NCBI GenBank assembly: GCA_025352785.1
Contig: JANXSD010000020.1
Location: 1-64,000, forward strand
Direction: 5' to 3'
Origin: Bacteroidota bacterium
GTDB lineage: Bacteria > Bacteroidota > Bacteroidia > AKYH767-A > OLB10
DNA length: 64,000 bases
Of the stretch, positions 9,876-14,202 are shown one piece after another. Numbering within the stretch: position 1 is the first letter of the stretch; every line of letters starts with the position of its first letter. The translations under genes were made by a program, and so were the position numbers. The notes beneath the pieces were generated by a model. It saw nothing but the letters and a program-made list of their open reading frames with translations, was not told where the DNA came from and did not search any database.

Positions 9876-12800
9876 ATGCAAAGTAAAGGCGCAGTTAAGC
9901 TGTTTGCGATCGTTTTAGCCCTTGTGTGCTTGTACCAATTGTCATTCACACTGGTAACAAAAAATGTTGAAAGCAACGCTAAAGAATTTGCCAATGGCAA
10001 CGAAAAGAAAGAGAAATCTTATCTTGACTCAATAGCAACAAAAGGTGTTTATAACATCGGTGTTAAAAATTATACTTACCAAGAGTGTAAGGAACGAGAA
10101 ATAAATCTCGGCCTTGACTTGAAAGGGGGTATGAACGTAACTCTTGAAGTATCTGTTGTGGATCTCGTTCGTTCTATGGCAGGACAAAATGCTACGGATC
10201 CAACATTCCAAAAAGCAATTAATCGTGCACTAGAAATGCAACGCAACAGCCAAGATGATTTCGTTGGCCTTTTCGGCAAAGCTTTCAAGGAAACGGATCC
10301 AAATGCTAAAATGGCTGCCATTTTCGCTAATATCGAAAATCAAGACCGAATTAATTTTAACTCAACAAATGATGAGGTTTTAAAAGTACTTAAGACAGAA
10401 GCAGATGCAGCTATCAGCCGTACCTTTAACATTCTTCGTACTCGTATTGATAAGTTCGGAGTAGCTCAACCAAATATCCAACAGTTAGGATCAGGACGTA
10501 TCCTCGTGGAATTACCAGGAGTTAAGGAGCCAGAACGTGTACGTAAACTTCTTCAAGGAACAGCAAAATTGGAGTTCTGGGAAACATACACTTTCGGAGA
10601 AGTAGCTCCAGCACTTGTTCAAGTTAATAAAGTACTAGCCGCAGATTCTCAAAAAGATTCATTAGCGAAATCATTGTTGACTTCTACAATCATTAAAGAC
10701 AGTAAAACAACAAAAAAAGATACGTCATCATTAGCATCTACTTCAGCGGATACTACTAAAAAGTCATCACTTGTTGATAAATTAGGAAAAGATTCGTCAG
10801 CTAAAAAAGATACATCACAAAAAACATTTGAGCAGTTCGCGAAAGAAAACCCTCTTTTTGCTGTGCTATTCCCTGCGGATGGTCAAGTACGTACGCAAGA
10901 AGATAAAGCTATCGTTGACAAATCATGCGTCGTAGGTTATACCTTAATTAAAGATACAGCAGCTGTAAATACAATCCTAGCTCGTGAAGATGTGAAAGCA
11001 ATGTTGCCGAAAAATCTTCGTCTACTATGGACTGTTAAACCTCGCTCAGCAGAATCACAATCTTTAGAGTTAATCGCAATAAAAGTTTCGGGTCGTGATG
11101 GTACTGCGCCGTTAGATGGATCAGCAATTTCTGATGCTCGCCAAGACTTTGGTCAGTTTGGTGGCAAGCCAGAAATAAGCATGCGTATGAATCCCGAAGG
11201 TGCAAAAGCATGGAAACGCTTAACAGGTGAAAACGTTAATCATTCTATAGCTATCGTTCTTGATGATCAAGTTTATTCATTCCCGAATGTGCAAGGTGAA
11301 ATACCAAATGGTAATTCTTCGATTACTGGAAACTTTGAAATTAATGAAGCAAAAGATTTAGCGAATATCCTAAAAGCAGGTAAACTTCCAGCTCCAGCAC
11401 ATATTGTTGAGGAAGCTGTAGTAGGACCATCGTTAGGAAAAGAAGCGATCAACTCAGGACTTATCTCTTTCGTTGTTGCTTTATTACTTGTATTCGTTTT
11501 TATGGGAATTTATTACAACAATGCAGGCTTGGTTGCCGTAGTTGCACTGTTATGTAATATGTTTTTCATCATGGGTGTTCTCGCATCATTGGGCGCTGTA
11601 CTTACAATGCCAGGTATTGCTGGTATCGTGTTGATTATCGCCCTTTCGGTGGATGCAAATATTTTGATCTTCGAACGTGTTCGTGAAGAATTACGTTTAG
11701 GAAAAGGATTGCGCCTTGCTGTAAGTGATGGCTACAAACATGCCCTTTCATCCATCATTGACTCTAACGTAACTACACTCTTATTGGGGATTATTCTTTA
11801 CGCTTTCGGTAGCGGACCAGTTCAAGGATTTGCAACCACATTGATCATCGGTATCCTTTGCTCATTGTTTAGCGCCATCTTTATTACTCGTTTAATTTTC
11901 GAATGGATGCTTGATTCAAATAAGGAAATTCGTTTCTGGAATGAGTTCTCAAAAAATGCATTCAAAAATATTCATATTGCATTCGTTGATAAACGTAAAA
12001 TGTATTACACGATTTCTGGAATTATTATCGCTGCGGGTATTGTTTCGATGGCTACACGCGGTTTTAATTTCGGTGTTGATTTTGTTGGAGGGCGTACGTA
12101 TGTTGTTCAATTTGATAAAGCCTCTACGACTGAAGAAATTCATAGTGAATTAGGGAAATCGTTTGGTAATTCGGCACATGATGTAAAAACTTTTGGTACT
12201 GATAACCGCTTTAAAATTACTACTGATTACTTGATCGAAGAAAATGGTCCTGATGCAGAAAGTAAAGTGCTTGCGAAATTATACGATGGCTTAAAGGCTA
12301 ATTTCCCTGGAATGTCGGAAGAAGCATTTAAAGCAACAAAGGTTATTAATTCGCAAAAAGTAGGACCTACAGTAGCTGATGATATTAAAACTTCAGCAGT
12401 ATATTCTATTCTTTTCGGATGTGCATTGATGTTCTTATACATCTTAATTCGATTTAAGAAATGGCAGTTTGGTTTGGGTGCAACAGCTGCACTGATTCAT
12501 GATGTATTAATAATCCTTTCGATCTTCTCTATCTTTAATGGTGTCCTTCCTTTCACACTCGAAATAAATCAAGATTTTATTGCCGCAGTTTTAACGGTAA
12601 TGGGATACTCCATGACAGATACTGTTGTGGTATTTGATCGTATTCGTGAATACTTAGGGATTCATCCAAACATGGACAAGAAGCAAGTTATTAATGATGC
12701 ATTAAATGCAACGTTAAGCCGTACCATGAATACTTCGTTAACAACATTCTTCGTTCTCCTTGCTATCTTTATTTTCGGTGGTGATGTGATTCGTGGATTT

Positions 12801-12899
12801 ACTTTCGCATTGTTAATAGGTATCGTTGTTGGAACGTATTCTTCACTGTGTATTGCAACTCCAATCGTTGTTGATTTCGATAAAAAGAAAACTGCATAG
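9876..12899 (+). CDS. secDF: Protein translocase subunit SecDF (fusion)
   Basis: NLGLDLKGGMNVTLEV (SecD), SISDARQDFGQFGGKPEISMRMNPEGAKAW, ALSVDANILIFERVREELRLGKG, then a SecF part with FNFGVDFVGGRTYVVQF and GYSMTDTVVVFDRIRE. Confidence 0.97.
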   Translation: MQSKGAVKLFAIVLALVCLYQLSFTLVTKNVESNAKEFANGNEKKEKSYLDSIATKGVYNIGVKNYTYQECKEREINLGLDLKGGMNVTLEVSVVDLVRSMAGQNATDPTFQKAINRALEMQRNSQDDFVGLFGKAFKETDPNAKMAAIFANIENQDRINFNSTNDEVLKVLKTEADAAISRTFNILRTRIDKFGVAQPNIQQLGSGRILVELPGVKEPERVRKLLQGTAKLEFWETYTFGEVAPALVQVNKVLAADSQKDSLAKSLLTSTIIKDSKTTKKDTSSLASTSADTTKKSSLVDKLGKDSSAKKDTSQKTFEQFAKENPLFAVLFPADGQVRTQEDKAIVDKSCVVGYTLIKDTAAVNTILAREDVKAMLPKNLRLLWTVKPRSAESQSLELIAIKVSGRDGTAPLDGSAISDARQDFGQFGGKPEISMRMNPEGAKAWKRLTGENVNHSIAIVLDDQVYSFPNVQGEIPNGNSSITGNFEINEAKDLANILKAGKLPAPAHIVEEAVVGPSLGKEAINSGLISFVVALLLVFVFMGIYYNNAGLVAVVALLCNMFFIMGVLASLGAVLTMPGIAGIVLIIALSVDANILIFERVREELRLGKGLRLAVSDGYKHALSSIIDSNVTTLLLGIILYAFGSGPVQGFATTLIIGILCSLFSAIFITRLIFEWMLDSNKEIRFWNEFSKNAFKNIHIAFVDKRKMYYTISGIIIAAGIVSMATRGFNFGVDFVGGRTYVVQFDKASTTEEIHSELGKSFGNSAHDVKTFGTDNRFKITTDYLIEENGPDAESKVLAKLYDGLKANFPGMSEEAFKATKVINSQKVGPTVADDIKTSAVYSILFGCALMFLYILIRFKKWQFGLGATAALIHDVLIILSIFSIFNGVLPFTLEINQDFIAAVLTVMGYSMTDTVVVFDRIREYLGIHPNMDKKQVINDALNATLSRTMNTSLTTFFVLLAIFIFGGDVIRGFTFALLIGIVVGTYSSLCIATPIVVDFDKKKTA

Positions 12900-12917
12900 T
12901 AAGTAAAAATAAATTTC

Positions 12918-12957
12918 AAAAGCCCTGTAGTCTGACGAAGTCTGAACTACAGGGCTT
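12918..12957 (+). terminator. Rho-independent terminator after secDF
   Basis: AAAGCCCTGTAGT...ACTACAGGGCTTT hairpin followed by a T tract. Confidence 0.85.
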
Positions 12958-13010
12958 TTTTTATTGTATGTTGATTGAAATAATATTCTTTTCCAACTTG
13001 CCAAAGCTAT

Positions 13011-13029
13011 CTTTAGTTTGCAACTAAAG
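13011..13029. repeat. Short palindrome CTTTAGTT-TGC-AACTAAAG
   Basis: Perfect 8-bp arms; abuts the first 58-nt repeat. Confidence 0.85.
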
Positions 13030-13079
13030 AAGTTCCTATAATTTTTTAGAATGTTCTGAGTTGCAAACTCAGAACAGCA
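13022..13079. repeat. 58-nt intergenic repeat, copy 1, ending in a palindrome
   Basis: aactaaagaagttcctataattttttagaatgttctgagttgcaaactcagaacagca; 54/58 identical by eye to 13221-13278; contains GTTCTGAGTT-GCA-AACTCAGAAC at 13053-13075. Confidence 0.9.
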
Positions 13080-13136
13080 GAGAAAAATGCTAAATAAAAT
13101 TATTCTACGTAGCTCAAAAAAAATCTATGTCTAAAA

Positions 13137-13183
13137 CTTGAGCATAACCCACGATAGCTATCGGGGGTGCTGCTGTGGTCAAG
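13137..13183. repeat. Imperfect extended palindrome centred on CGATAGCTATCG
   Basis: cttgagcataaccca-CGATAGCTATCG-ggggtgctgctgtggtcaag; core palindrome at 13152-13163. Confidence 0.6.
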
Positions 13184-13220
13184 CAAAAGAGCGAACCGAC
13201 AATGGGGTTACCGATAACGT

Positions 13221-13278
13221 AACTAAAAACGTTCCTATAATTTTTTAGTAGGTTCTGAGTTGCAAACTCAGAACAGCA
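13221..13278. repeat. 58-nt intergenic repeat, copy 2, ending in a palindrome
   Basis: aactaaaaacgttcctataattttttagtaggttctgagttgcaaactcagaacagca; same palindrome at 13252-13274. Confidence 0.9.
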
Positions 13279-13293
13279 TGATTGAAGTAAAAA

Positions 13294-14202
13294 TTAGATC
13301 ATTTTCCTTTTCAATTGTTCTTCCACAATCTGAATTCCTTCTCGTAAAGTATGCGGTTTGTAACCAAGTTCACGAATGGCTTTATCAATAATAAATCCAG
13401 TTTTTAAAGGTCGCTTCGCTGGTTGATTTAATTCCGCTGTTGTGATCGGTTGAATAAATGATTTATCCAACTTAAAGTAGTCGGCAACTTCGTATGAAAT
13501 ATTAATAATTGGCATTACTTCTTTTCCAGAGATGTGAAAAATTCCTTGCGCCTTTCTTAAGGCAGCTTGAATACATGCTTCTGCTAAATCTTCGGCTAGT
13601 GTGGGTCCGCGAAATTGATCCGTAATTACAGTAATTTTTTTTCCTTGCTCTAAAGAGTTTTTAGTCCATAAAACAACGTTTGATCGCTGTGCATCATCTG
13701 TAACACCATAAATGATTATAGTGCGTAAAACGGTCCATGGCAAACCGCTTTCTTCAACAAGTTTTTCAGAATCTAATTTTGACTGCGCATATACACTTTG
13801 TGGATTAGGTTTGTCGGTCTCTTTGTATGGACCATTTTCTCCATCGAAAACAAAATCAGTTGATAGATGGATAAAATGTGTTCCGAGTGGTTTGCATGCT
13901 TCCAATAAATAGCCAACAACTCCAACATTATTTAATTGGCAAGTAGGAGAATCTAATTCACAAGCATCAACGTTTGTCATTGCGGCTGTGTGGATGATGC
14001 AATCGGGTCGGTAATTATTTATTACTTCACGTACATGTGATTCATCCGTAAGATCCATTGTTTCAAAAACATAACCATTTTGTTCTTTGACACGATTTTC
14101 GCCTCTTGCAGTAGCAATTAATTCAATGTCTTTTCTGTCGCGTAAAGCGTATACAAGTTTTTGACCAAGCAAACCATTAGAACCTGTTACAAGAATTTTC
14201 AT
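13294..14202 (-). CDS. SDR family / dTDP-4-dehydrorhamnose reductase-like (RmlD) oxidoreductase
   Basis: MKILVTGSNGLLGQKLVYAL (Rossmann), DCIIHTAAMTNVDACE, HLSTDFVFDGENGPYKETDKPNPQSVYAQSKL. Confidence 0.88.
   Translation of the reverse strand: MKILVTGSNGLLGQKLVYALRDRKDIELIATARGENRVKEQNGYVFETMDLTDESHVREVINNYRPDCIIHTAAMTNVDACELDSPTCQLNNVGVVGYLLEACKPLGTHFIHLSTDFVFDGENGPYKETDKPNPQSVYAQSKLDSEKLVEESGLPWTVLRTIIIYGVTDDAQRSNVVLWTKNSLEQGKKITVITDQFRGPTLAEDLAEACIQAALRKAQGIFHISGKEVMPIINISYEVADYFKLDKSFIQPITTAELNQPAKRPLKTGFIIDKAIRELGYKPHTLREGIQIVEEQLKRKMI

Follow-up and report, generated by a model that had tools for sequence, protein, structure and literature searches.

A REPIN-like hairpin doublet behind secDF in a Bacteroidota bacterium, probably derived from a RAYT-linked mobile repeat system

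The hairpin cluster between secDF and an rmlD-like gene in a Bacteroidota bacterium is very probably the product of a mobile repeat system linked to a REP-associated tyrosine transposase (RAYT), a reading that explains the cluster best as a whole. It relies on sequence comparisons of five kinds: membership of a hairpin family, a RAYT gene lying between cognate hairpins in the same genome (locus C94), a series of deletion derivatives, extra DNA relative to related genomes, and covariation in the stems. Judged by these comparisons, the cluster is a REPIN/BIME-like, non-autonomous RAYT element. The preliminary description of this DNA had preferred a REP/BIME-like element or a non-autonomous MITE to a terminator, and the copies elsewhere in the genome, the RAYT and the short gaps in relatives speak for that choice. 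The kind of repeat is already known among bacteria, and its sequence family is absent from the papers covered by a text search: queries of the article text with the hairpin GAGTTGCAAACTC and with GATAGCTATCGG retrieved no matching paper.

In the window (the whole stretch of 64,000 nucleotides analysed), secDF (9876-12899, + strand) and the rmlD-like gene (13294-14202, - strand) are convergent and separated by a gap of 394 bp. The features of this gap and of the related C94 locus are as follows.

12918-12959, + strand: intrinsic terminator of secDF, a perfect stem of 14 bp with a T run after it, outside the hairpin element
13006..13078, + strand: A1, a complete RAYT-less REP doublet, REPIN-like, with a two-hairpin fold and ends matching the C94 RAYT element and other derivatives
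13006..13030, + strand: left REP of A1, with tag GCT, hairpin 13010-13030 and loop TGC
13053..13078, - strand: right REP of A1, inverted, with hairpin 13053-13075 and tag AGC at 13076-13078
13095..13219, + strand: element B, a truncated copy of an unrelated dispersed repeat of ~240 nt, homologous to at least 15 other places in the same genome
13152..13163, no strand assigned: palindrome CGATAGCTATCG, a third dispersed repeat inside B, lacking in most B copies and present at this position in the window and C155 copies
13221..13277, + strand: A2, a 5'-truncated doublet, 93% identical to A1, with a complete right REP at 13252-13277
G000:C94:61675-62226: RAYT gene between inverted cognate hairpins, an intact 184-aa ORF identified by profile match and motifs

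The two near-identical 58-nt units with about four mismatches, first noticed by eye, are returned by a repeat search as a direct repeat (13022-13079 and 13221-13278; 93% identity, 4 mismatches, spacing 199). Both end, as described, in one perfect palindrome, GTTCTGAGTT-GCA-AACTCAGAAC, located at 13053-13075 and 13252-13274. The claimed relationship between this palindrome and the one to its left, CTTTAGTT-TGC-AACTAAAG at 13011-13029, is exact, the core AGTTTGCAACT being the reverse complement of AGTTGCAAACT. With up to 3 mismatches allowed, the 17-nt core matches the window four times, against 0.15 matches expected, and positions 13005-13079, folded as DNA, form two hairpins with a z-score of -5.1 that none of 200 shuffles equals. 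The natural unit is best taken as 13006-13078 (73 nt), starting with the GCT that precedes the left palindrome, rather than as the 58-nt unit. A1 is then laid out as GCT, left hairpin, a 22-nt linker GTTCCTATAATTTTTTAGAA, right hairpin and AGC, with the tags pointing outward. Its left REP AGCTATCTTTAGTTTGCAACTAAAGAAG aligns with the left end at C94, AGCTGTCTTTAGTTTGCAACTAAAGACG, and its right REP, read as reverse complement, GCTGTTCTGAGTTTGCAACTCAGAAC, aligns with the right end, GCTGTCCTGAGTTTGCAACTCAGGAC, with one fully compensated pair. A2 starts just past the loop of the left hairpin and is devoid of the tag and left arm of that hairpin; units with the same half left hairpin also occur in tandem arrays at C94 and C115.

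The third, imperfect palindrome reported between the two units does exist, since CGATAGCTATCG at 13152-13163 lies inside an imperfect 85% palindrome, but it belongs to other repeats, and the grouping of the three palindromes into one element was rejected. Element B itself follows the pattern GTGGTCAAGC..AGAGCGAACCGACAATTG..TTTCTTTGGTTCGTTTCTTTT (L191-L211), contains internal inverted segments and is nearly absent from relatives. The motif CCGATAGCTATCGG, noted at 13152-13163 of the window and at L005 and L009, occurs 13 times in this genome and 58 times in G037, with none for a reversed-pattern control in either, and is over-represented in many Bacteroidota relatives. It also appears inserted in one B copy (L005), and a short dispersed palindrome distinct from B is suggested.

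About 25 related hairpins occur at nine places in the genome (C13, C33, C61, C94, C115, C131, C134, C163 and C184), a count obtained from pattern and BLAST searches and tallied by hand, in a fragmented assembly that may hide copies. The repeat is thus not unique to its locus, and of the many intergenic copies foreseen in the preliminary description, dispersal is borne out while abundance reaches tens, not hundreds. At the five loci checked, all hairpin copies lie outside ORFs of ≥100 aa. The copies form a deletion series running from the full RAYT element at C94, through forms of ~150 nt found at C115 (twice) and C184, in which the 5' end of the RAYT persists between the same ends, to the RAYT-less doublets of ~60-73 nt in the window and at C33, C61 and C163. 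At C94 and C115, tandem units combine one half of a left hairpin with the RAYT 3' end and a right hairpin. Tandem arrays at G000:C94:61245-61666, at G000:C115:12252-12386 and at C33 (L004) are built either from the right hairpin together with the RAYT 3' end or from half hairpins, and their unit boundaries fall at or near hairpin tips. The start of A2 within the left hairpin almost coincides with that of the halves in the arrays, so such half units may arise by breakage or slippage at the tips.

A RAYT had been expected somewhere in the genome, and the intact one at C94 sits between cognate hairpins. Its protein reaches 103 bits, where the cut-off is 80, with the NCBIfam model for REP-associated tyrosine transposases (NF047646), falls below the NCBIfam IS200 equivalog cut-off (30.5 versus 55 bits) and carries the motifs NHIH, WQ and YIHNNP. 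A sequence search of the PDB with this protein gave a sole, weak match, to TnpA-REP (4er8, E 0.25), and a search of plasmids gave distant relatives only, none above 55% identity. Further Y1 transposase genes or fragments are present in the same genome at G000:C77, C39, C74, C130, C98 and C163 (L031-L035, L037); none is linked to the hairpin family except that at C163, where a RAYT-less doublet lies ~0.6 kb away.

Alignment of 19 distinct hairpins shows an invariant GCT tag (19/19), followed by G or A, and a nearly invariant tip, AGTT-TGC-AACT. In this set 5 of 10 stem pairs are changed on both sides and 94.7% of cells remain paired. The covariation score of the stem is 0.327, compared with 0.139 ± 0.020 in shuffled alignments (0/500) and at most 0.108 for slid structures, the rows being hand-picked, related copies and the shuffles leaving that relatedness in. 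The compensatory changes point to selection on the fold, as support rather than proof, because the rows were selected by hand and are related. The GT[AG]G motif is absent 5' of the hairpin foot, so that the classical GTAG REP was rejected as a description of these hairpins, and in this respect the initial REP reading needs correction.

The rival that survives best is that of an immobile relic, in which the cluster would be old debris of a RAYT element changed only by slippage or recombination, with no RAYT acting. It differs from the mobile-element reading solely in whether the cluster still moves, and it deserves consideration as a less probable but tenable account. The truncation of A2 at a hairpin tip, recurring as half-hairpin units in the C94 and C115 arrays, would suit such decay. 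So would the stem variant of the window, TTCTGAG/CTCAGAA, found at no other locus among the own-genome copies compared; this confinement and the low copy number both count against a mobile element. The relic account is opposed by the intact RAYT at C94, with all its motifs, and by stem pairing maintained through compensatory changes.

Comparison with relatives bears on how the cluster reached its place. In five genomes of the same family (L101, L103, L104, L106 and L121), the gap between the aligned ends of secDF and rmlD is 56-93 bp and holds essentially a terminator of the secDF kind alone, as anticipated in the preliminary description, which had predicted relatives devoid of the insert. Since the gap measures 394 bp here, the extra DNA is read as an insertion, and the hairpin cluster, on this comparison, is an insert absent from those five relatives; the genomes compared are other genera of the family and define no exact empty site or target duplication. 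Elsewhere the gap is 257 bp of unrelated sequence (G005) or ~1 kb resembling another gene (L102, L105).

These gaps also weigh on a transcriptional role, in which the cluster would act as a bidirectional terminator or a stabiliser of mRNA 3' ends for the convergent genes. Its position downstream of both genes fits such a role, and side effects of this kind are possible for classical REPs according to PMC6006769. However, secDF has its own terminator at 12918-12959, with which the relatives manage alone; hairpin copies sit in unrelated intergenic places; and a terminator scan of 12850-13350 detected no terminator-like site within the cluster, although it also missed the secDF terminator, whose loop is long. 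A transcriptional role is therefore quite improbable. A regulatory RNA or riboswitch, to which the strong secondary structure might point, is hardly credible, since an Rfam scan of the cluster gave no match, which leaves the known regulatory RNA families raised in the preliminary description without a candidate, and since the copies adjoin unrelated genes and surround a transposase gene, a multicopy intergenic pattern that contradicts an RNA reading.

For the preferred, mobile-element reading, the following course of events can be proposed. The doublet at 13006-13078 would be what was left once the transposase gene between the hairpins had been deleted. Such doublets are probably recognised by a RAYT as single-stranded hairpins, most likely by the intact one at C94 acting in trans, which would cut near the tags and rejoin the strand in another intergenic location. 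Insertion of the doublet behind the secDF terminator would postdate the split of the lineage from its sequenced family relatives, and the locus would then have gained the partial second copy A2 as well as a truncated copy of repeat B, to which the doublet is unrelated.

Beyond this genome, the exact hairpin core is present in only 3 of 395 genomes of the class, and 30 contigs from Bacteroidota metagenome-assembled genomes carry the pattern GCTGTNCTGAGTTTGCAACTCAGNAC; 12 of these contigs contain a RAYT homologue as well, whether full or partial. In L164 and L157 the hairpins enclose a cognate RAYT in inverted orientation; L153, L156 and L161 show the same arrangement, except that their left ends vary slightly. 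Hairpin-flanked RAYTs of several other Bacteroidota genomes are 56-71% identical to that of C94, and five RAYTs with the hairpin, C94 included, constitute one clade (support 98/78) that excludes 25 RAYTs without such a hairpin. Each of the six other carrier genomes searched has only 1-9 exact hairpin copies. As the hosts span several families, horizontal transfer of the hairpin/RAYT system is suggested. One candidate pairing was rejected: the hairpin in L152 adjoins a RAYT of another branch with its own, different flanking hairpins, and is for that reason taken for an insertion next to that RAYT. In other Bacteroidota (L069-L097), RAYT genes lie between different palindromes or inverted repeats that are peculiar to them, and each RAYT branch seems to have its own hairpin. 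Of 36 hairpin copies from other genomes, 9 have the motif AGCTATCCGTAG (≤2 mismatches) outside the hairpin, against ~0.1 expected, mostly 25-32 nt away (L147, L149, L150, L154, L158, L161, L167, L168 and L169); this motif may mark the outer limit of the full element. It is tempting, if speculative, to see here one branch of group 5 RAYTs with a code of its own (GCT in place of GTAG, a fixed AGTT-TGC-AACT tip, and an outer AGCTATCCGTAG 25-32 nt out in some hosts), a horizontally spread, low-copy system still shedding internal-deletion derivatives, at an IS-like stage between IS200 and classical REPINs.

Research on RAYTs and REPs has centred on Proteobacteria, with their GTAG-tagged REPs, which often exceed 100 copies per genome. 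The Bacteroidetes subclass is described, in the papers covered here, only as flanked by atypical structures. Together, the locus, its C94 parent and the relatives provide a hairpin family documented from tag and loop to compensating stems, deletion series and matching RAYT clade, in detail sufficient to design binding and cleavage tests, and explain a repeat easily mistaken for a terminator or a regulatory RNA.

Flanking of RAYT genes by inverted REPs is established (PMC2817692), and REPINs are the doublet form of REPs (PMC3116915). Here, two inverted REP hairpins share a short unit (13006-13078; C33, C61, C163), inverted copies of the same REP flank the cognate RAYT at C94, and intergenic copies are dispersed over nine places. 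REPINs usually number >100 per genome, compared with ~25 hairpins in this case; the REPIN-like label is kept because high copy number is usual, not defining. Like the REPINs and BIMEs of Pseudomonas and Escherichia, the family comprises short inverted intergenic doublets with outward tags and a RAYT flanked by the same REPs. It differs by a conserved 5' triplet GCT instead of a GTAG/GTGG tag, by AT-rich stems, by tens rather than hundreds of copies and by RAYT remnants inside some derivatives (PMC3116915, PMC2817692). Cleavage and joining of single-stranded REP DNA have been demonstrated for RAYT groups 2 and 3 (PMC8266576).

By the motifs of the C94 protein, the RAYT to whose elements the doublet belongs is assigned to group 5. 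This group, also TnpA-REP subclass 2.6, is the Bacteroidetes RAYT branch, with atypical hairpins and the motifs NH[LIV]H, WQ and YIH[QN]NP, according to PMC6006769; a further criterion is a 21-residue insertion between helix C and strand 4. The likeness extends to the motifs NHIH, WQ and YIHNNP in a Bacteroidota host, to a length of 184 aa against a published median of 179, and to a gene flanked by atypical hairpins with copies elsewhere in the genome. The parts of that paper's text drawn on here contain no hairpin sequence or copy map, whereas tag, loop, stems, doublets and deletion series are described here for one branch. With IS200/IS605 elements and their MITEs, the family shares a Y1 HuH transposase, hairpin ends and internal-deletion derivatives; it differs from them in that the C94 protein falls below the IS200 cut-off and above the REP-associated one, and in that its ends are inverted copies of one hairpin.
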